Positions 2,997-51,231 of a stretch of DNA of 52,144 nt are shown in pieces. The DNA is taken from positions 1-52,144 of the IMG/VR virus record IMGVR_UViG_3300037843_000033, one strand, 5' to 3'. The stretch comes from a virus. Every line of letters begins with the position of its first letter. The first letter of the stretch is position 1. Under the pieces are notes generated by a model. It was given only the letters and a program-made list of their open reading frames with translations. It had not been told where the DNA came from and did no database searches. A program made the translations under genes and the position numbers.

Positions 2997-3287
2997 TGGT
3001 GGAGCAGACGGGAATTGAACCCGTGTCCAATAACTATTTCGCACTAATGAATTACAAGTTTACTAAGGGGCGACTGATTTCAGTCACCATCCACCATTGG
3101 TCAGTTAAACTGTGACCAAACCAGCATCCACATAGCCGTAATGTGCAAGCACGGCATCAGCTTGTGCAACAGACATTGCGTAGTCTTGGTTAGCATTTGT
3201 TTTGCCTAGAGAGTTTTAAGTGGCCAACTAGACATCCACTACTTGCATTAGTTTTGATTTAATTACTGTCGAAACCATTACTGCCCC
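2997..3287 (-). ncRNA. ssrA: Transfer-messenger RNA (tmRNA) with unusually long tag frame
   Basis: The minus strand has the tmRNA tRNA-like ends. The 5' GGGGCAG pairs over seven bases with 3' CTGCTCC, with a G-U at the third pair, the alanine identity element. ATGGTTTCGACAG follows the 5' stem, the T-arm is ACGGG-TTCAATT-CCCGT, and CCA is encoded. tmRNA rescues stalled ribosomes and adds a degradation tag. The likely tag frame begins at or next to GGC after CTCTCTA (GKTNANQDYAMSVAQ...) and ends at TAA in the loop of a TTGGTCA/TGACCAA hairpin, as in known tmRNAs. That gives about 32-33 residues ending GLVTV, much longer than the usual 10-15 and without the normal Leu-Ala-Ala end. The resume codon is inferred. 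A pseudoknot-type helix GGTGACTG/CAGTCGCC follows the tag. Confidence 0.88.
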
Positions 3288-3590
3288 GTTATTAAAATTG
3301 TTTCCATACTAACATACTGCCTGCACAAAGTGTTTAATCCACTTGGGGCTAGAGGGTTAGTATGGAATATGTTTTGATACAGTTACATTGTCTGCATCTT
3401 TTACAAATTAGTCCTGCCATCATACACTAGCCTTGTGTATCTTATAGTTGCCGATACACTAAGGGCCGACGTATGATTCTACATTGACATATTCTTATAG
3501 CAACTTCTATGCCATTGTATATCATCACTAATTCAACCAAGATTTTAGCTCTTGGATTGGCTTTGAAATTTAGGTTGGTGAGGGTTGGAA
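3288..3590 (-). other. Noncoding interval with strong RNA folding potential, upstream of the tmRNA
   Basis: No convincing gene. There is a 12-bp perfect inverted repeat TTCCATACTAAC (3302-3313) / GTTAGTATGGAA (3356-3367) enclosing a second hairpin (AAGTG/CACTT). A second unit has outer arms ATCATAC (3419-3425) / GTATGAT (3471-3477) around GTGTATC (3435-3441) / GATACAC (3453-3459), and CCAAG/CTTGG follows near 3540-3556. It may be the tmRNA precursor leader or one or two separate small RNAs. Confidence 0.5.
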
Positions 3591-3630: not shown

Positions 3631-4101
<471 letters not shown>

Positions 4102-4493
4102 AGCTGCCAACCCACACTTATTTACAGTCCAAGAGAGTCTGAAGACTTACCTTCAGTTTGGTCTCTTGACTAGCTTTGCCATGATAGTCTTGCTCTCAAC
4201 AGGCATTGCTTTATGGCCTAACAATCTTTCGATTCTTAGTTAGGTTAGAATCATAAACATACACGTAATATGTTCTAAATGGTGCAATGAAATGTATAAG
4301 AGATTGGATACTCTTAAGTTCTTCTAGTGTAAAATATAGTAATTACTTATACAATACTAAACTGCTACTCCACCTTATCACACTGATATTGTATGTGATT
4401 ATTCAGTCAATACACAGTCATTGCACCAGTTAAAACACATTCTGGACATTCATTCGGCTAACAGCCGTCGTTATTCTACATAATGGACTAGAA
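4102..4493 (-). other. Structured noncoding interval
   Basis: No gene seen in about 390 bases. Several perfect inverted repeats nest or follow each other: CAAGAGA (4130-4136) / TCTCTTG (4162-4168) around CTGAAG (4139-4144) / CTTCAG (4151-4156); GATTCT/AGAATC near 4230-4250; GGTGCAATGA (4281-4290) / TCATTGCACC (4418-4427) enclosing TACAATA (4349-4355) / TATTGTA (4387-4393); and CGGCT/AGCCG near 4455-4467. This looks like a multi-branched RNA. It shares the 3' hairpin style of the 3288-3623 interval. Strand assigned by neighbouring genes only. Confidence 0.45.
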
Positions 4494-6767: not shown

Positions 6768-7214
6768 ATGTCAGCGGAATTAAATGCAATCAAAACTGCC
6801 TATGAGGAAGAAGGTTTAACGCCTGACTTTATAGCAGAAGATAGAGGTTTAGACTTGGCTGCTGTAAAGGCGGCCCTGATGCAGTCATCTTCTAAATACC
6901 GTAAAGATTGTGGTATAGAAGATGAGAAATCAGACTCTATTAATTTTTCTAAAGATGAACAAGAACGAGTTAAGAATGTAATACTTGACATTGCATTAGG
7001 TGCAGATGACGACCACCTAAGATTCAAAGCAGCCGCATTTATACGTGATGATGCAAAAGGCCGCCGTGATGTTGTACGAAACATGGCTGGCAACAATTTT
7101 AATGTACTATTTCTTAACCAGCAGTTAGCTAAGGTTGGCAAGATAGCTGATGGACTTAAGCAAGCTGTTTTGGGTAATGGGCATACAGACAGAAAGGCTA
7201 TTGTTGATGTCTGA
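6768..7214 (+). CDS. Probable small terminase subunit
   Basis: A 148-residue protein directly before the large terminase, with which it overlaps by 8 bases. The N-terminal 30 residues (AYEEEGLTPDFIAEDRGLDL, then AAVKAAL) look like a helix-turn-helix as used by small terminases to bind the packaging site. The middle (KDEQERVKNVILDIALGADD, then FKAAAFIRDDAKGRRD) is helical, fitting oligomerisation. The assignment rests on position, size and this layout; no direct family match was recognised. Confidence 0.6.
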   Translation: MSAELNAIKTAYEEEGLTPDFIAEDRGLDLAAVKAALMQSSSKYRKDCGIEDEKSDSINFSKDEQERVKNVILDIALGADDDHLRFKAAAFIRDDAKGRRDVVRNMAGNNFNVLFLNQQLAKVGKIADGLKQAVLGNGHTDRKAIVDV

Positions 7215-9045
7215 CAACGATTTAGAAATTGAGCAATTACTGCAGAAAGTTAATTCCTCTTCCGAGGAACAGACTACTCACAGAGTTGTTCCTGATGAGA
7301 AGTTAAAGATGGAGCCTTCTATTACCGTTCCACCTGTTCCTCTATCTAACCCTCTAGCCCCAAGTTCCGAAGTTATTCATACAATAGATACACCTGCTAC
7401 TTTTGATGGCTTAGCTATAAAAGACCCTGTTGACTTGCTAGTATTGCTAGACGAGAACATACAGAATGGAACTATTAAGCTTCATCCTTGGCAAATTCAA
7501 TTTATGCTTGACTTTGCTAACCCTAATCACACTAAGGAGCAGCCTTTTCAAGCAGCAGTTCAATCGTGTAATAGTTCAGGTAAAGATAAATATGTAATAG
7601 CTGCCTGTGCTGTATGGCTAGCTATGCGGTATCAAGGTGTAGAGATACCAATTACTTCATCTTCTGGTACACAACTTGACAGTCAGACTTGTGCACACAT
7701 TGACCGCCTTTGTAACCGTTCTAATGCTATTTTGGGCCCAATGTGGAAGTTAAACTACCGTTATTATGAGTTCAAGCATATTGGCAGTTTAGGAGAACCT
7801 AACCCATCCACTATTAAGTGTTTTGCAACTGATGAAGCTGGCAAAGCAGAAGGATACCATCCATCTGATGCTGGGAGAAAAATGGCAATATTTACATCAG
7901 AAACTAAGTCTATACCAGATGATATAACTGATGCACTAGAGAGATGCACTGGATTTACTCATAGAGTAGACGCATCATCACCTGGATTAGCAGCAGGGTA
8001 CTTTTATAATACTTGTTCATCTGCTATTCCAAGAGAAGAAATAGATGATATATGCTCTCTTACTTCTGTCCAGACTGTCTTGTATAAGATAACAGCTTAC
8101 CAGTGCCCACACATAACTGAATCAGAAATTAATCGTATAGCTTCTAAACTTCCTGGGGGGAAGAATAATCAAGTATTTAAGTCATCAGTCGAAGCCGAAT
8201 TTGGTTCTACATCTGAAATGGTAGTTATACCATCCAACTTTGTATGGGGAGCAGTGTCAGACTTACCTAAAAGGAAAGTGCCATTTAATATAACTTGGAT
8301 TCAAGAGCCGCATAACACAGCAGGGTTAGACTTATCTGATGGCGGCGCTGAGACTGTATTAGCTATTAGGAATGGTAATAAGCTACTCGGTATTGAGGCA
8401 TTTAGACTGGAAGATACCGAAGATACGCTAGACTATCTTACTGAAACTTTATTTCCAAAATGGAATCTCAAGCACAAAGATGCGTTGATATTTGGTGACT
8501 ATTGTGGTATGGGTGGCCCAATGCTTAGGGCACTAAAGAGACGTAAATGGTCTAATGTAAGGTTTGTGGATAGCCGTAACAAGGCTTCTGAGCCTAAGAC
8601 GTACGCCAATAGAGGTACAGAATTATTCTTCAATGTAAGACATTTGTTAGCTGGAAAAGAACTTATACTATACTATGATAAGTTGCTTATCGACCAGTTA
8701 TGCACTAGATACTATAAATTGAGAGATGGCGTGATACATCAATTGCTTTCTAAAGTAGAACAGAAGGCTAAGGGATTTCCTTCACCTGACCGTGCTGATG
8801 GTGTTAACCTCTGTTTCTGGAATTATAAATCTACTAGAGTATCAGAAGAAGATGAAGAACCATTTGAGAAAGAGAAAGAAGATGATAAAGATAGGCAAGT
8901 AGTAGTTAATGATTTTGACCAGAAAGTATGGGCAGAAACAGGATGTAAGAAATACAATCCTGAACATGTGGAGGCAGACAAGTCTGATTTACAGGAAGAA
9001 ATAGAACAATACAACAAACAAAGAACACAACTAATTGGAGTATAA
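7207..9045 (+). CDS. terL: Large terminase subunit (DNA packaging ATPase/nuclease)
   Basis: ATG 7207 gives 612 residues; the frame is open to 7150 but the upstream stretch overlaps the small subunit. The motor cuts concatemeric DNA and pumps it into the prohead. Visible parts: packaging ATPase domain with 'HPWQIQFMLDF' near residue 93 and a divergent Walker A (SCNSSGKDK, residues 120-128); RNase H-like nuclease domain with acidic motifs GLDLSDGGAE (about residue 375), FGDYCGMGG (about 430) and SPDRADGVNLCFW (about 530). The C-terminus (about 540-612) is very acidic and charged. The ATPase motif lacks the usual GKT/S ending (GKD), which is seen in several divergent terminases. Confidence 0.9.
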   Translation: MSDNDLEIEQLLQKVNSSSEEQTTHRVVPDEKLKMEPSITVPPVPLSNPLAPSSEVIHTIDTPATFDGLAIKDPVDLLVLLDENIQNGTIKLHPWQIQFMLDFANPNHTKEQPFQAAVQSCNSSGKDKYVIAACAVWLAMRYQGVEIPITSSSGTQLDSQTCAHIDRLCNRSNAILGPMWKLNYRYYEFKHIGSLGEPNPSTIKCFATDEAGKAEGYHPSDAGRKMAIFTSETKSIPDDITDALERCTGFTHRVDASSPGLAAGYFYNTCSSAIPREEIDDICSLTSVQTVLYKITAYQCPHITESEINRIASKLPGGKNNQVFKSSVEAEFGSTSEMVVIPSNFVWGAVSDLPKRKVPFNITWIQEPHNTAGLDLSDGGAETVLAIRNGNKLLGIEAFRLEDTEDTLDYLTETLFPKWNLKHKDALIFGDYCGMGGPMLRALKRRKWSNVRFVDSRNKASEPKTYANRGTELFFNVRHLLAGKELILYYDKLLIDQLCTRYYKLRDGVIHQLLSKVEQKAKGFPSPDRADGVNLCFWNYKSTRVSEEDEEPFEKEKEDDKDRQVVVNDFDQKVWAETGCKKYNPEHVEADKSDLQEEIEQYNKQRTQLIGV

Positions 9046-9900: not shown

Positions 9901-11823
9901 ATGCCAGACGCCAGTTCAGACAAGTCAATAGACTATATAAATAGTACGGACTATAAAAAGTTGGTTAGTAAGTTGAACAACTTGAAGGACATTACTTTCG
10001 ACTTGACTAACAAAACTCTGGCATCTAGGCGACTTCGATATGCAGAAATTGATATTGAAGTTGAAAGAAAAGCTGGGAGGATTGCGCCGGACGAAATTTA
10101 CGTACCTCAACACATAATAGACACGAACATTCGCCGTGAGCAATCCTCCTACATTCAATATATAACTCAATCCCCACGAGCAGTTATACTTAAAGATAGA
10201 GTTGACCCATCTTTTGACTTGTCTTTGCTTGAAGTTGACTTGACAGAGAAGCTACGTTTTGATGGTTGGCAACTGTCAACCTACGCTAACATTGATGCAT
10301 CTCAGGCCAATGGATATGGTATAATGGAAACAGTACAGGACTTAAATAATCCTGGAGATATTGGCAGAGAGCATGTTCAGTATGGCGATTTTGCATTTAT
10401 AGCTGATACTCGTGATTTGCAGAAAGCTGAGTTCTTGGGGCGGTCATATTACTTTACTAAGTCTAAGTTACTAGCCCTTACTAAATCTGAGAGTGAGAAT
10501 GACAGATGGGATAAAGAGCAAGTTGATAAGTTACTTAAGATGGAGCCTAATGACGAGCAGGCTCAAATATACTCTGGTACATCTACCATAAATAGGTCAC
10601 TATACAAGATTATTAAAGTAATGTTCAGAGTTAAGGGAGTTGTACATGTAGCATGGTGTGCTCCTGTGTTCTGCGACGATTGGTTAAGAAGCCCTAGAAA
10701 ATTGTATTTAGGTCGTAGAAAACTTAATCAGGGGGCTGCTAAAGTAGCTCCAATGCTTGCCAAAGTTCCACCAATGTTGGAAAAAATAGCAATACCATTA
10801 TTTAAGAAGCGTAATCCATCTTTAACTGATGCACACATACAACAGATAAAGAATGGAGTGCCACCCTCTGATGAAGAATATGAGACTCAGTATCCATACT
10901 TCATATATCCCTATCTTATCTCAGAAAATGACACAATAGCTAACCTTAAAGGCAGAGTGTTTCTTGACCAAGATACTCAAAATGCTGCTTCTAGTTTACT
11001 GTCTAGCTTATTAACTAAAGCTCGTAGGTCAGCAGGATTATACTTCTCTAAAGATGTTTCTGACCCAAATGATGACTTCTTATTGCAAAAGAATGTATAT
11101 TTCAAGCAGGGAGCCTTGCTCAATGGCAAGATTAAAGAATTTAAGTTAGATGCACCTGACGCGCAATTGTTTACTGCATTAACAACTCTTGTGTCAGCTA
11201 ATCAGCAAGAAACTTCACAAGTTAACTTTGCAGAGAATAATAGACAAGCTGATAGTAGAAAAACAGCTACAGCTATAAAGGCGGCTACAGCGCAGCAACA
11301 GCAGCTAAGTGGCGTTCAAGTTACACTATTTTCTGTTGCAACTAAGAATCAATACACCTACGAGTGTGACATTATCAAGTCAAGAGTGTTGGCTGGACTC
11401 ATTAAAGTATCACCCATACTAGCTCAATTGTATGCTCGTTCGTGGACTGTTAAACCATCTGGTGATACAGATGTTATCGAAAAACAGAAGATGATTGAGA
11501 CTATGCAACAGGCTTGGCCAGTAGTGCAGAATACTGGTGCTGCTTCTTTATTCTTAACTGACTTGCTAGAGAAAATGTTTCCCGACAATGCTGCTAAGTA
11601 TGTCAAGGCTATACAAGACCAGCAGCAACAGCAGCAAGGACAACAAGCCCAGCAACAACAAGCATTTATGTCTAAAGTTAAACAACTAGCTGACCAAGTT
11701 GTAAGTCTGTCTAAACATAGAGAAATGTTTTCTGAGACTGGATTAGTAAATGCTTTACCAGCAGTTCAAGCTGCTGCTCAACAAATAGAACAAATGCAAC
11801 AACAAGCAAAAGGACAACAATGA
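9901..11823 (+). CDS. Portal protein (probable)
   Basis: A 640-residue protein after AAGGAGACAATCAC, in the normal portal slot between terminase and scaffold/capsid. The portal is the dodecameric ring at one vertex through which DNA passes. Support: size and position, the N-terminal helical segment, a long helical region in the middle (about 320-480, including TALTTLVSANQQETSQ and NNRQADSRKTATAIKAATAQ) and a Gln-rich C-terminus (about 580-640), typical of podovirus portals with helical barrels. I rely on context and size more than on a signature motif. Confidence 0.75.
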   Translation: MPDASSDKSIDYINSTDYKKLVSKLNNLKDITFDLTNKTLASRRLRYAEIDIEVERKAGRIAPDEIYVPQHIIDTNIRREQSSYIQYITQSPRAVILKDRVDPSFDLSLLEVDLTEKLRFDGWQLSTYANIDASQANGYGIMETVQDLNNPGDIGREHVQYGDFAFIADTRDLQKAEFLGRSYYFTKSKLLALTKSESENDRWDKEQVDKLLKMEPNDEQAQIYSGTSTINRSLYKIIKVMFRVKGVVHVAWCAPVFCDDWLRSPRKLYLGRRKLNQGAAKVAPMLAKVPPMLEKIAIPLFKKRNPSLTDAHIQQIKNGVPPSDEEYETQYPYFIYPYLISENDTIANLKGRVFLDQDTQNAASSLLSSLLTKARRSAGLYFSKDVSDPNDDFLLQKNVYFKQGALLNGKIKEFKLDAPDAQLFTALTTLVSANQQETSQVNFAENNRQADSRKTATAIKAATAQQQQLSGVQVTLFSVATKNQYTYECDIIKSRVLAGLIKVSPILAQLYARSWTVKPSGDTDVIEKQKMIETMQQAWPVVQNTGAASLFLTDLLEKMFPDNAAKYVKAIQDQQQQQQGQQAQQQQAFMSKVKQLADQVVSLSKHREMFSETGLVNALPAVQAAAQQIEQMQQQAKGQQ

Positions 11824-14102: not shown

Positions 14103-15377
14103 TTGTTCGCTCAACTTCCTTTCTACCTTGTTCATAATGAGGTAGAACAATACTGTAACTGGAATGAATTTGACCAAATGTATGGGTCAATTCCGTGGCA
14201 GGAAAATATGGGTTCTGTCATGGAAGCAGTTACTCCACAGCGTTCACCTGTAGGTCGTTCGTTCTTCTTTCCTAATCCTATTACTACAGCCAGTAATAAG
14301 GACATCTATCAGGTTACAGAATCAAATGAACAGGCTGTGTTGTACAAACACAAGTATGGTTCATTTGTGTTTAACTTCATTCCTTCATTCCAAGTATTTT
14401 GGGATAAGTACATTAAGTTTAACTCTGATGATATTGTTAAACAAATTGCTGTAAGCAATAACCAGTTCATCGAAACACAGATGTGGCAGAATGCTACTTA
14501 TGTGTATATTTGTGGTGTTGGTCTTAGCGCTGGTGCTCCTACTGGTGCGATGAACTCGACTCTTAATGCAGCCAACTCTAAGTCTGCTGCATGGCTAGTT
14601 GCCCTTACTCAAGGCACAGCAGCTAATCCTGGCCCACTTCAAAATCTTCGTATTCGTGATGCATACCGTGCAGTAATGAATCTGCAAGATGATTTGGGTG
14701 CTCCTTCATTTAATGGTGCTAAGAACATGCCGAAAGACAATGAGGGTCTTAAGGGCCGTTATGCACTGTTCTGTGGTTCTGAGGATTACTTTAACTTTAC
14801 CTTTGACCCTGATGTTAATGGTGTTGTTGGTACACAAGGTATGTTAAAGTCTGTTAATCTTGACTTGCTGTTTAATGACTTCAAAGGTTCCTTGTTTGGT
14901 ACATTGACATGCAAGATTAAGAAGTATCCTATTCGTTATAGTACACAGAACATTGTTGATGGTGCTGGTACTGTTCTTTGGGCGGCTGGATTTCCTATTG
15001 ACCCTGAAATCTTCGACCCAACTGATAACAAGTGGAAACCTAATCCTTATTACACATCACTTGTGTCTGCTCCATACTCTATTGCCTGGCTACTTGGTGA
15101 TAACTTCTGTAAGACACTCAAGGTTGGCCCTCCACCTAAAGAGTTTGCTACAAAGAATATGTCAGGTGAGAAATTCTACTCACTGCGATGGAATGGTGAG
15201 GTTCGTTTAACTGACCAGATTCTTATTACTAACTCTGATGGTTCGATTGAACTTAACGACTATGGTGAAAACTTGCAGCTTAAGTCTCAACTAACTCATG
15301 GATTGATTATGACAGAAAGACGTTTTGCGTTTCCAATTATAATTGCACGTTCTCGTCCAGCAATTACTTCTGTCTAA
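14103..15377 (+). CDS. Major capsid protein (probable), start codon unclear
   Basis: The frame gives 424 residues from a TTG at 14103. The same frame stays open upstream to 14016 and reads TPSYYNQPGSFANAIIQPNN directly before it, which looks like genuine protein sequence. There is no ATG, GTG or TTG in that part; ACG at 14043 lies 7 bases after GAGAAAG. Position after scaffold, size, lack of signal, and regular alpha/beta composition fit a capsid protein. The usual start region is occupied by the HNH gene and an RNA structure, so expression may need a non-standard start or splicing. Capsid role is inferred from position and size. Confidence 0.75.
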   Translation: MFAQLPFYLVHNEVEQYCNWNEFDQMYGSIPWQENMGSVMEAVTPQRSPVGRSFFFPNPITTASNKDIYQVTESNEQAVLYKHKYGSFVFNFIPSFQVFWDKYIKFNSDDIVKQIAVSNNQFIETQMWQNATYVYICGVGLSAGAPTGAMNSTLNAANSKSAAWLVALTQGTAANPGPLQNLRIRDAYRAVMNLQDDLGAPSFNGAKNMPKDNEGLKGRYALFCGSEDYFNFTFDPDVNGVVGTQGMLKSVNLDLLFNDFKGSLFGTLTCKIKKYPIRYSTQNIVDGAGTVLWAAGFPIDPEIFDPTDNKWKPNPYYTSLVSAPYSIAWLLGDNFCKTLKVGPPPKEFATKNMSGEKFYSLRWNGEVRLTDQILITNSDGSIELNDYGENLQLKSQLTHGLIMTERRFAFPIIIARSRPAITSV

Positions 15378-36423: not shown

Positions 36424-36671
36424 AGTTTATTTAGTTCTTCCTCAATAATTCTTGCATGACAAGTTGGAGAGGCAGTACCACAACCAGGACAATAAAGAAT
36501 GGCTCCGTTATTAATTTGTTCTTTCAACCATTTAACTTTATCCGGACAATACTTAATAACTGCTTGAAAATGTTTTCTATATGATTCTGACACTACTAAC
36601 TCTCTTTTTGGATTACCAAACAATCCATCAAATATTCCGCCAGAAGATGCTCTTCCAATATTAATCTTCAT
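36420..36671 (-). CDS. Small zinc-binding-type protein
   Basis: 83 residues. CPGCGTASPTC with a further His/Cys near the end suggests a zinc knuckle (about residues 60-75); another Cys (YCPDK) is at about residue 40. It is coupled on both sides by ATGA overlaps (polymerase C-part before, helicase after), so it belongs to the replication set. Role unknown. Confidence 0.65.
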   Translation of the reverse strand: MKINIGRASSGGIFDGLFGNPKRELVVSESYRKHFQAVIKYCPDKVKWLKEQINNGAILYCPGCGTASPTCHARIIEEELNKL

Positions 36672-37723
36672 ATAGCTAAAGTTTTCAGTCCCATCGGATT
36701 ATCTTTCTCTTTGAATGGTGCCCAATTAAGACCCACTTGTGTCTCAGATTTCATGTTGAATACTACTCCATCAACGGGTGAAGTAAACTCCTGTTCAATA
36801 AATTCTTTCTGTTTTCTTCCGCACTGCATTGCTTCTTCTATAGGACATTGAGATACTATGCTGTCATGGCCATTAAGTAACAAGTCCCAATCAAGATGAT
36901 TAGTCTCTATGTATTCCTGCATTGCACAGTATGCTCTGTTAGTTATCTCACCTACCGTTGATTGCGGAGTCCATGCATAGAATGATTTATAGTCTTGTTC
37001 CGATGGACTATGCTGACTAAGATAATAAGGAGCTCCAAAGAAGTTATAAAGTATTCTTGTCTTTTCAGCTTGATAACGAACTCGCCTATTACGTTCAGGA
37101 ATTTCAGGAAATAACGAACGATGTATTACTAGAAATCTAGTGGCTTCGTCCATTGGGAGAGATATTTTTCCGCCAGATTTCTCCAAAACATTCATTCTAA
37201 ATGCTTGTGCTTGTACATCATAGTTAGCACTAAGATTAGTTTGTTTGCCAAAATAATAATATCGTTTAGATGATGGCCAGTTGTCAGTCTCTTTTATTAG
37301 ATGCGACAAATCTTTCCAGTATGGATTAGATTTTAGTGCTTGTATAGGCGTCTTTAGTACATCTTGTATATCAAATCCTGGTACATCTTTCATTTCTTTT
37401 TGCCATACATGAGGAAACAAATGAGCACTAACATACACATGAGAATGTACTCCATGAATGAATAGCTGTCTATATGGGCCAGCTTCACAATCATATCCCA
37501 TGATAAGAGCTTCGGCTCCGGCTTGGTCAGTCTGAACCAAAATCTTACCATCATCAGGTACATATATCTGACGCATTGATTTCTCAATGTTTTGTAAGTT
37601 ACCACCAAAACCTATCTTCTTCAACTTGCCATTGATATACTGTTTCTTAGGCATAATTTGCCTAGAACGCAGACGAAAAGATTCTGCGCCAGCTACATGC
37701 CACATACAGGAATCTCTAATCAT
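36668..37723 (-). CDS. DNA polymerase family A, C-terminal (palm/fingers) part
   Basis: 351 residues from ATG 37723. Contains the catalytic core: GAESFRLRS ... GGNLQNIEK (start of the polymerase palm), motif A KILVQTDQAGAEALIMGY (about residue 60-77), motif B region RYQAEKTRILYNFFGAPYYL (about 205) and motif C LLNGHDSIVSQ (about 285; HDS in place of the usual HDE). It lacks thumb and exonuclease, which lie in the upstream ORF. The reading frame is the same as that of the upstream ORF but is separated from it by several stops; the frame itself stays open about 40 bases before this ATG. Coupled to the 49-residue ORF by ATGA. Confidence 0.85.
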   Translation of the reverse strand: MIRDSCMWHVAGAESFRLRSRQIMPKKQYINGKLKKIGFGGNLQNIEKSMRQIYVPDDGKILVQTDQAGAEALIMGYDCEAGPYRQLFIHGVHSHVYVSAHLFPHVWQKEMKDVPGFDIQDVLKTPIQALKSNPYWKDLSHLIKETDNWPSSKRYYYFGKQTNLSANYDVQAQAFRMNVLEKSGGKISLPMDEATRFLVIHRSLFPEIPERNRRVRYQAEKTRILYNFFGAPYYLSQHSPSEQDYKSFYAWTPQSTVGEITNRAYCAMQEYIETNHLDWDLLLNGHDSIVSQCPIEEAMQCGRKQKEFIEQEFTSPVDGVVFNMKSETQVGLNWAPFKEKDNPMGLKTLAI

Positions 37724-37869
37724 TTTATGTATCTTAGATACGAGCCTGTAATTACTTTTGAGTTAAAGCTAGATGTAGGAGGCACCCATTCTATACCTAG
37801 TTTCTTAAACCATTTCTTTTGTGCTTCAGTTGGTGGAAGTTGACACACTATTCGTGGTTGTGCTTTCAT
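37720..37869 (-). CDS. 49-residue ORF bridging the two polymerase parts
   Basis: ATG 37869 to TGA 37720, in the +1 frame relative to both polymerase ORFs. It overlaps the last 44 bases of the N-part and ends in an ATGA overlap with the C-part. The product (KAQPRIVCQLPPTEAQKKWF ...) reads like real coding sequence, while the N-part's own last residues (ESTTTNSVSTSTN) look like a wrong-frame tail. Either a genuine tiny gene, or the missing middle of one polymerase reached by +1 and then -1 shifts. Confidence 0.5.
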   Translation of the reverse strand: MKAQPRIVCQLPPTEAQKKWFKKLGIEWVPPTSSFNSKVITGSYLRYIK

Positions 37870-39388
37870 TTGTATTAATCCAAGGAATAAACCTAAGACG
37901 ACTTGTTTCTTTCCTTGTTTGTCTATAAATATTTACTAACGTTAATACAGGATTGTTATACTTGAGTGCTAGTTTGTACAACGACTTCTTACCTAATGAT
38001 GGCTGTCCAGTATCCTTAGACCGAAACATAACAGGATAACCTAACAACTCATGGAAGTAAGTGCAGCATTGTTTAGTCGAACCAGCAAACATGCCAACCT
38101 TTCCTGTTCCTCTTATATCTTTCATGCCTTGCTCACCAATCAAAATCTCAATCATTCTATTGTACTGTACCATCAATCTATCATTTTCATTACACATAGA
38201 ATTTATTTTCGCCTCGTCCGTTTTGATGCCTTGTAACGTGGAGGTAAGATAAGGACGAATACACCGCATAGCAGCCATAATACTTTCAGATAAACCGGGA
38301 ATCGTTCTAGCATATGATTCAATAGCGTTGTAAACTAGATACATAGTGTACACATCTTTACCACAATAGCGTAACCTGTCCATCATTTGTTCATGTGTTC
38401 TGTATGCCATTGAGTTCTCATCTTTATGAAATTTCTCCCATGTCCAGTATGATACACAATGACCAAGAGACTTTTCAATGTCAGGAAAGCATCTATGCAT
38501 AGCTATCATAGTATCATATGTCTTAACTATTGGTATATGATACTTCCACGCTAAAATAAAGAAATCAAATGTTTGACCATTGTGGGCAACTAAAGTATTG
38601 TCTCTAATAGCAATTGCCAAAGCTCGTAAAATACAGTGTAGATTAGTATAAGCCCACTTATAGTTATAATCAAGAACAGGTACAGAATAAATAGTAGAGC
38701 CATCAAAAGAGAAGCTAAAGCATTGCCAATTGCATTCTTCAATGTCTGTCTCTTTGTCATAAAATAATAGTTTGTTCTTGTTATCTTGTAAACACTCTAT
38801 CACTTCTTTAGCTGATGGATAGATAATGTATTTTGGTTTTCCAACCACTGGACTGTAGTCAGCGAGTATCTTCTTACACTTGGATACATCAGCTTTGAGC
38901 CAAAAAGCATAGTTAGCCCTCTTGGTTCTGCCATGTCTCTTAACATCGCCCTCGTCCTCATCTTCATCTGAACCTGATACCTCAGAGTCTGTAGAATAGT
39001 CTTTAGCATATGGATTATTTTCTCCTTCATAGTTACGAGGGTCAACTGCATCTTGCGGAAGATAGGATGCTATTGCAGGAATACCTTTGTGATACATCAG
39101 GGAACCTCTCATTTCATTGAGTGAGTTCCCTAATGTTTCAGGAAGGAATTTATGCATTGCTGATTCTCCAAGTAGTAATATACACTTGGTATCGGGGAGT
39201 AGCGGTGCAGTTTCATCCCTTAATCTCACGTCACATTGCATACTATTATATTCAGGGCGTAGACAATGGTTGTCAAAAAGCAATCCTCCATTTGCACTTA
39301 GTAACCTTAGAGAATCAAATCTGCTTGGATTACTCATGACTACTGTCAATCCTGAATACTTAAACTTTGGTTTGTTCCTTAATAACAT
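37826..39388 (-). CDS. DNA polymerase family A, N-terminal part with UDG-like and 3'-5' exonuclease domains
   Basis: 520 residues. Residues about 50-110 (CILLLGESAMHKFLPETLG, then RGSLMYHKGIPAIASYLPQ) resemble a uracil-DNA-glycosylase fold found fused to some phage polymerases. An acidic linker (SDEDEDEG) follows. The 3'-5' exonuclease shows its three motifs: FYDKETD (about 209), AHNGQTFDFFILAW (about 268) and YCGKDVYTMYLVY (about 339). Then comes the thumb (NPVLTLVNIYRQTRKETS). The polymerase palm is in the next ORFs. Starts within the 66-residue gene upstream. Confidence 0.85.
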   Translation of the reverse strand: MLLRNKPKFKYSGLTVVMSNPSRFDSLRLLSANGGLLFDNHCLRPEYNSMQCDVRLRDETAPLLPDTKCILLLGESAMHKFLPETLGNSLNEMRGSLMYHKGIPAIASYLPQDAVDPRNYEGENNPYAKDYSTDSEVSGSDEDEDEGDVKRHGRTKRANYAFWLKADVSKCKKILADYSPVVGKPKYIIYPSAKEVIECLQDNKNKLLFYDKETDIEECNWQCFSFSFDGSTIYSVPVLDYNYKWAYTNLHCILRALAIAIRDNTLVAHNGQTFDFFILAWKYHIPIVKTYDTMIAMHRCFPDIEKSLGHCVSYWTWEKFHKDENSMAYRTHEQMMDRLRYCGKDVYTMYLVYNAIESYARTIPGLSESIMAAMRCIRPYLTSTLQGIKTDEAKINSMCNENDRLMVQYNRMIEILIGEQGMKDIRGTGKVGMFAGSTKQCCTYFHELLGYPVMFRSKDTGQPSLGKKSLYKLALKYNNPVLTLVNIYRQTRKETSRLRFIPWINTNESTTTNSVSTSTN

Positions 39389-44602: not shown

Positions 44603-44618
44603 ATGTTAGAAAGTATAT
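44603..44618 (-). promoter_or_regulatory. Copy C of the 16-bp element ATATACTTTCTAACAT
   Basis: Identical on the minus strand to copies A and B. It overlaps the last codons of the activator gene and points into the structured region before 43983. Confidence 0.45.
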
Positions 44619-45517
44619 CGTATCTTTCCTAATACATTATATCTTTTCAATGCTTGTTCAAGTGACCTTACATTCAATGACAAATCAATCTTATCATTCA
44701 TTATAGCTTCTTCATATTGAGCTAGAAATTCTTTTGCTTTGACTGGCAACTTAAGTAAATCTCCAAGAGCTATTACTATTGGAACTATATCTCTCTTACG
44801 TTCCCTCAATGGTTTAATGTGCAATTCAAATGTACTTATTCTCGCATACAAATCTTTCCTGAATAGATTCTTATCAACCATTTCTCTTATATTGCGATTA
44901 GTTGCACACACAAACCTACATGAAATCTCTTTTTCATCTGCTGCACCGACAGGACGAATGTATCTTTTGCCATCAATAGGTTGTAATACATTAAGCAACT
45001 TAGCTTGTGTTGACAATGGCAAGTCGCCAATCTCATCAAGAAACATTACTCCATCTTGGGCAGATAGTATTAGTCCTTTCTTACTGCTAGTTGCACCAGT
45101 AAATGCACCAGCAGTATGGCCAAACAGTTCTGACTCCACTAACTCTGCTGGCATAGCCGCGCAATTAATACGAGCAAATGTTCCTTGTCTATCACCTATC
45201 ATTGCTCTAGCTATTAGCTCTTTACCAGTTCCAGTTTCACCAGTAATAAGAACTTCATCATCAACTTTAGCTAGCTTCATAGCATCAGCTTTCATGGCTA
45301 GGGTATCTTCATCTTCGGTTATAAACTTCTTCAACCACAAAGCTGCTCCTGTAACCATATCTACTAACTGTCCATTCTCAATTCTAAACTTTAACTCAGG
45401 AGTAATATCTAGTAACTGTTGTACAGCTTCTACTTGTCCAACAGCTAATAGAGAACGCAGAGTAGATTCTGTTGGAGCTATTCTATCAGGTGTGTTAGGT
45501 TTTTGTATTGATATCAT
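44606..45517 (-). CDS. NtrC-type sigma-54 activator (AAA+ domain, no DNA-binding tail)
   Basis: 303 residues. Walker A GETGTGKE (93-100), the sigma-54 contact loop GAFTGA (137-142), Walker B FLDEIGDL (159-166), sensor ATNRN (about 205) and arginine-finger region FRKDLYARI (219-227) are all intact. These are the defining features of bacterial enhancer-binding proteins, which use ATP to open sigma-54 polymerase complexes. The about 70-residue N-terminus is not a recognised receiver or GAF domain, and no C-terminal helix-turn-helix is visible (it ends about 60 residues after the AAA+ core), so it may act from solution or through another protein. Its target could be phage late promoters at 5720 and 6172. 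Confidence 0.85.
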   Translation of the reverse strand: MISIQKPNTPDRIAPTESTLRSLLAVGQVEAVQQLLDITPELKFRIENGQLVDMVTGAALWLKKFITEDEDTLAMKADAMKLAKVDDEVLITGETGTGKELIARAMIGDRQGTFARINCAAMPAELVESELFGHTAGAFTGATSSKKGLILSAQDGVMFLDEIGDLPLSTQAKLLNVLQPIDGKRYIRPVGAADEKEISCRFVCATNRNIREMVDKNLFRKDLYARISTFELHIKPLRERKRDIVPIVIALGDLLKLPVKAKEFLAQYEEAIMNDKIDLSLNVRSLEQALKRYNVLGKIRYTF

Positions 45518-51143: not shown

Positions 51144-51231
51144 TGAGCGCGGCAGGATTTGAACCTGCATGACCGCATAAGTCAGGGGCTTCTATGCTCA
51201 CCCTTGCGTCTTTTCATTCCGCCACGCGCTC
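51144..51231 (-). tRNA. tRNA-Leu-like gene with irregular anticodon arm
   Basis: Acceptor GAGCGCG/CGCGCTC pairs perfectly, then TG, D-arm GCGGAATG...GACGC, a variable arm TGAC-TTATGCG-GTCA and T-arm GCAGG-TTCAAAT-CCTGC. The length (88) and the long variable arm point to leucine. The anticodon arm does not fold into the normal 5-7-5 form: AGGG...CCCT closes with a bulge or 10-13-base loop containing ATAG. TAG (reading CUA) is the best guess. CCA is not encoded. Confidence 0.6.

Follow-up and report, generated by a model that had tools for sequence, protein, structure and literature searches.

A compact phage-encoded tmRNA with a long tag that lacks the Ala-Ala end

A one-piece tmRNA gene with an intact tRNA-like domain

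The window analysed here is the whole of the virus record IMGVR_UViG_3300037843_000033, 52,144 bases in length. Positions 2997-3287 of its minus strand hold a one-piece tmRNA gene of 291 nt, for which ARAGORN and the Rfam model RF00023 gave identical coordinates; the RF00023 match scored 110.3 bits against a gathering score of 47 (E 2.6e-42) and extended over the full model (1-374). A sequence-only reading of this DNA had proposed a tmRNA at the same place and on the same strand, with intact tRNA-like halves, and both proposals were borne out. The acceptor stem (all features of the gene are on the minus strand) comprises 7 bp, in which the 5' strand GGGGCAG at 3281-3287 pairs with CUGCUCC (CTGCTCC in the DNA); the latter is followed by the encoded ACCA, and together they occupy 2997-3007. 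G3 of the stem pairs with U, so that by its sequence the molecule combines an alanine-identity acceptor with a T-arm and CCA. The T-arm, ACGGGUUCAAUUCCCGU, has a 5-bp stem and lies at 3008-3024 (Rfam alignment and sequence), and TGGTTTCGACAG, read from the sequence, is likewise present in the tRNA-like domain. At 291 nt the gene is at the low end of the one-piece viral tmRNAs, which range from 287 to 462 nt among the IMG/VR matches listed. Promoter-like sites near the gene were no commoner than in shuffled sequences.

Helices, pseudoknot and resume codon

P2 is an interrupted helix, the 5' strand of which (3241-3268) was assigned from the minimum-energy fold and the Rfam alignment, and the 3' strand (3028-3059) from the fold and from comparison with L002 (IMGVR_UViG_3300018017_000002), a near-identical relative carrying the same tag. 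The differences between the two tmRNAs fall in a junction, in an internal loop, or at position 3034 in P2, where a G.U pair is replaced by A-U, and the fold is kept. PK1 occupies 3204-3240 and was recognised from the complementarity of AGUGG with CCACU and of GUCUAG with CUAGGC; the Rfam alignment pairs one of these stems. The resume codon GCU lies nine bases past PK1, at gene position 94, with A at position -4 and C at -5. In Escherichia coli the A at -4 (A86) is crucial and a C at -5 is tolerated (PMC2481249). At the usual place of PK2-PK4 stands an 8-bp hairpin, GGUGACUG-AAAU-CAGUCGCC (3069-3088), taken from a fold made without pseudoknot modelling.

A tag reading frame of 29 codons

From the resume codon the tag frame runs through 29 sense codons to a UAA stop (3105-3194; ARAGORN and codon listing) and encodes ANQDYAMSVAQADAVLAHYGYVDAGLVTV, which corrects an earlier count of 32-33 residues. 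The same earlier reading was right that the Leu-Ala-Ala end is missing: in place of the (Leu-)Ala-Ala of a ClpXP-type tag, the peptide closes with GLVTV. Codons 11-29 (3108-3164), ending LVTV, extend beyond the usual tag length, as judged by a median of 13 residues in the survey described below. The UAA, at gene positions 181-183, was indeed found inside a hairpin loop, as had been suggested; the loop has nine bases and is closed by a perfect 7-bp stem, UUGGUCA-CAGUUUAAC-UGACCAA, at 3097-3119, the place of P5 (read from the sequence). Among 5000 shuffles, 71 likewise placed a stop codon in a loop closed by a perfect stem of 7 bp or more; this comparison was judged after the fact, and the placement seen here is suggestive.

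The openness of the frame, in contrast, proves nothing, since a 29-codon open frame was present in 22% of Markov-shuffled sequences and the +1 frame is open too. The probability that the 19 extra codons would open by chance is 37%. A normal short tag in another frame was considered and rejected: the +1 frame runs for 30 codons to a UGA just past the UAA, the +2 frame stops at once, and an Ala-Ala end is absent from every frame. An origin of the tag extension in some protein encoded by the phage or by its relatives was also considered, but nothing matched convincingly; the highest-ranking hit (E 0.2) was to a low-complexity Ala/Asp/Tyr stretch of the open reading frame at 3631-4110. This frame, on the minus strand upstream of the tmRNA gene, contains a low-complexity Ala/Asp/Tyr/Val repeat (AYADAVAADAYADAVAVAAAV) that shows insertions and deletions relative to L002.

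Comparison with viral and bacterial tags

IMG/VR was scanned for the tmRNA 5' end in a survey that covered the GGTTTCGACAG and GGATTCGACAG types only, and this yielded at least 179 tmRNAs with at least 101 distinct tags. Among the matches listed, 88 of 101 distinct tags end in Ala-Ala and 95 of 101 in Ala; the median length is 13 residues, with 20 or more residues in 17 tags and 29 or more in four, and mis-calling may account for some outliers. The window tag is thus in the tail of the survey, unusual and not unique. Ordinary IMG/VR phage tmRNAs, such as ANNNLHFEQRLAA, share its one-piece form and conserved ends but carry short Ala-Ala tags.

The closest parallel in an isolated phage is that of Mycobacterium phage ArcherS7 (NC_021348, Bixzunavirus Bxz1), which also encodes a one-piece tmRNA with a long, non-Ala-Ala tag; this tag, ATDTDATVTDAEIEAFFAEEAAALV, has 25 residues and ends ALV. 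The ArcherS7 molecule is longer (435 nt versus 291 nt) and is encoded inside a large tRNA cluster, and both its tag and the phage itself are unrelated to ours. Phage tmRNAs whose long tags lack Ala-Ala are therefore a known kind, and the window adds another case. The viral record IMGVR_UViG_3300009124_000002 (L076) likewise has a one-piece tmRNA with a long tag of 33 residues, GEDNIAGLLDEAAAIMNNADAVLAGAEVAEVVA, although the RNA has 417 nt and the tag is otherwise different. Both tags contain ADAVLA, with different third codon positions; a hexapeptide shared with survey tags occurred in 15 of 2000 shuffles, ADAVLA having been noticed after the fact.

Among bacteria, tmRNAs sharing the 5' end of the window gene were found only in Clostridia, Bacilli and Caldisericia MAGs, and their tags are unrelated; two of the Bacilli MAGs have tags of 21 residues. 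The ssrA tag of Mesoplasma florum resembles the window tag in its atypical length and sequence but belongs to a bacterial gene with demonstrated use of Lon: this longer, unusual tag is still a degron, read by that protease (PMC8138137).

Relatives and genome content

The window and L002 form a mosaic in which some blocks are identical and others approximately 90% identical. The two sequences are circular permutations of one another, as a complete permuted or circular genome would be. Positions 3067-3424 show zero differences between the two, so that the tag stretch is unmutated and the shared tag is uninformative about selection on the peptide. A search for further relatives with the pattern ANQDYAM found a tmRNA only in L007, which is the L002 contig, and L004-L006 lacked one. 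No tmRNA match was obtained in five further relatives (49.8-54.3 kb, possibly incomplete records), which have 43-64% identity in the terminase candidate. On the strength of these five, and as far as possibly incomplete records show, the tmRNA looks like an accessory, lineage-specific acquisition of the window lineage. At the DNA level, annotated phages matched only in chance stretches and at the ends that tmRNAs conserve, and the 640-aa and 520-aa proteins had no tblastn match among those phages.

Phage-type replication proteins are present in the window. From their order, motifs and conservation, the products of 7150-9045 (631 aa), 9901-11823 (640 aa) and 14103-15377 (424 aa) look like candidate large terminase, portal and major capsid protein, names that are provisional because no family model matched. 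SmpB (PF01668) was found in neither the phage nor the relatives tested, with working positive controls; the RNA is thus not encoded together with its protein partner, and, if it works, must use host SmpB, which could serve. The tyrosine integrase family (PF00589) had no match in the window, and no integrase match was found among the neighbouring open reading frames.

Three other features were recorded. A tRNA with a long variable arm lies at 51144-51231 (minus strand; Rfam 36 bits, not called by ARAGORN) and is also present in L002. DNA polymerase A, at 36668-39388 (minus strand), looks split into two open reading frames, the exonuclease half (37826-39388) and the polymerase half (36668-37723) matching successive parts of phrog_17. 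The product of 44606-45517 (minus strand) strongly matches the sigma-54 interaction AAA+ domain (PF00158, E 1.8e-54), which is not usually seen in phages of such a size.

Viral tmRNAs reduced to the tRNA-like domain

The same IMG/VR scans also returned tmRNAs of approximately 77-80 nt made up of nothing but the tRNA-like domain, at no fewer than 17 loci and with at least 13 distinct sequences (L011, L018, L025, L045, L046, L052, L056, L070, L077, L088, L121, L263, L264, L269-L271 and L275). A dedicated pattern located such elements in 31 virus contigs, the further ones being L277-L290. Each has an acceptor stem with an invariant G3.U, a short covarying P2-like stem, a T-arm and CCA, and is without pseudoknots, mRNA domain or tag. 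In an alignment of 11 elements the three helices were 96.7% paired, six pairs were changed on both sides and G3.U was invariant. None of the elements checked was called by ARAGORN, and the majority are found immediately before the start of a gene.

The sole phage precedent in PMC4131195 and PMC11915505 is the tmRNA of mycobacteriophage DS6A, which carries little beyond the tRNA-like domain; a similar molecule inhibits tmRNA (PMC4131195). Like the window gene it is a phage-encoded tmRNA variant, but it lacks the mRNA domain and tag that the window gene has (PMC4131195). By analogy with DS6A, it is possible that the elements found here act as inhibitors of trans-translation. They are more surprising than the long-tag tmRNA and may merit more attention.

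Discussion

These results support the view that the phage encodes a tmRNA of its own, complete in structure, whose tag is long and altered. The best explanation, to which we give an even chance, is that one lineage of phages of approximately 50 kb acquired a compact, complete tmRNA that rescues ribosomes through host factors and has lost its ClpXP-type end. Host AlaRS would charge the RNA, which host SmpB and EF-Tu would deliver, during infection, to ribosomes that had stalled on broken messages; translation would then resume at GCU and end at UAA, freeing the ribosome. Ribosome rescue is most likely what the window tmRNA does, this being the natural reading of its intact parts. The selected benefit would most likely be ribosome release itself, with the Leu-Ala-Ala end lost where degradation was unneeded or unwanted. 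In an E. coli lambda-immP22 assay, release suffices for phage growth, and neither the correct frame nor destruction of the product is needed (PMC2481249), so that a phage could drop the degradation end and keep the benefit. With LVTV in place of LAA, it is plausible that tagged products would escape ClpXP.

This explanation is supported by the full-model RF00023 match, G3.U, CCA, PK1, the A at -4 and the stop in its loop, and also by the fold-preserving differences from L002, the lack of an SmpB of its own and the ArcherS7 precedent. It is weakened by the single near-identical relative, the five relatives without a tmRNA match and an open frame of a length that could well arise by chance.

The last step could run differently if the ClpXP-type end had been swapped for another protease signal. 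A working tmRNA whose long tag is a host-matched degron for a protease such as Lon, FtsH or a Tsp-type enzyme is a tentative alternative, distinctly short of even. Its nonpolar GLVTV C-terminus would suit such a role, ssrA-tagged proteins are also known to go to ClpAP, Lon or FtsH, as the Mesoplasma tag does to Lon (PMC8138137), and bacterial tags of 21 residues exist; the tag peptide, however, has no similarity to those known degrons open to comparison. We think it rather unlikely that the RNA is a decoy, titrating SmpB or competing with host tmRNA, with a tag that drifted once the original stop codon had gone. The DS6A molecule and its inhibitory counterpart (PMC4131195), together with the ease with which 19 codons open by chance, speak for such a decoy, but PK1, the A at -4 and the stop hairpin have all been kept, and this argues against a pure decoy, for which they would be needless.

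Resumption in the +1 frame is more doubtful again and seems very improbable: that frame is open and, owing to an AAA run before the resume codon, also has A at -4, but frame 0 is favoured, since its peptide opens with Ala-Asn, as most surveyed tags do, and it is ARAGORN's choice. Many elements integrate into ssrA (PMC11915505), and a phage doing so might carry away a fragment of the host gene; we regard this origin as barely credible here, given that the whole gene is present, with neither a tyrosine integrase nor an integrase among the neighbouring frames. An att remnant, meaning a partial ssrA gene beside an integrase, was rejected on the same grounds, the gene being complete and PF00589 unmatched.

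Phage tmRNAs are common and little studied. Taken singly, the window case is a modest addition to them. Set beside the Bxz1-type phages and L076, it shows long tags without a degradation end in unrelated phages, and it raises the question of whether phages keep ribosome rescue while dropping proteolysis. One answer, which we hold as a minority view, is that such a reprogrammed phage tmRNA frees ribosomes and leaves a stable tag, so that rescue would be uncoupled from proteolysis during infection. If true, this uncoupling could hold for Bxz1-type phages too.
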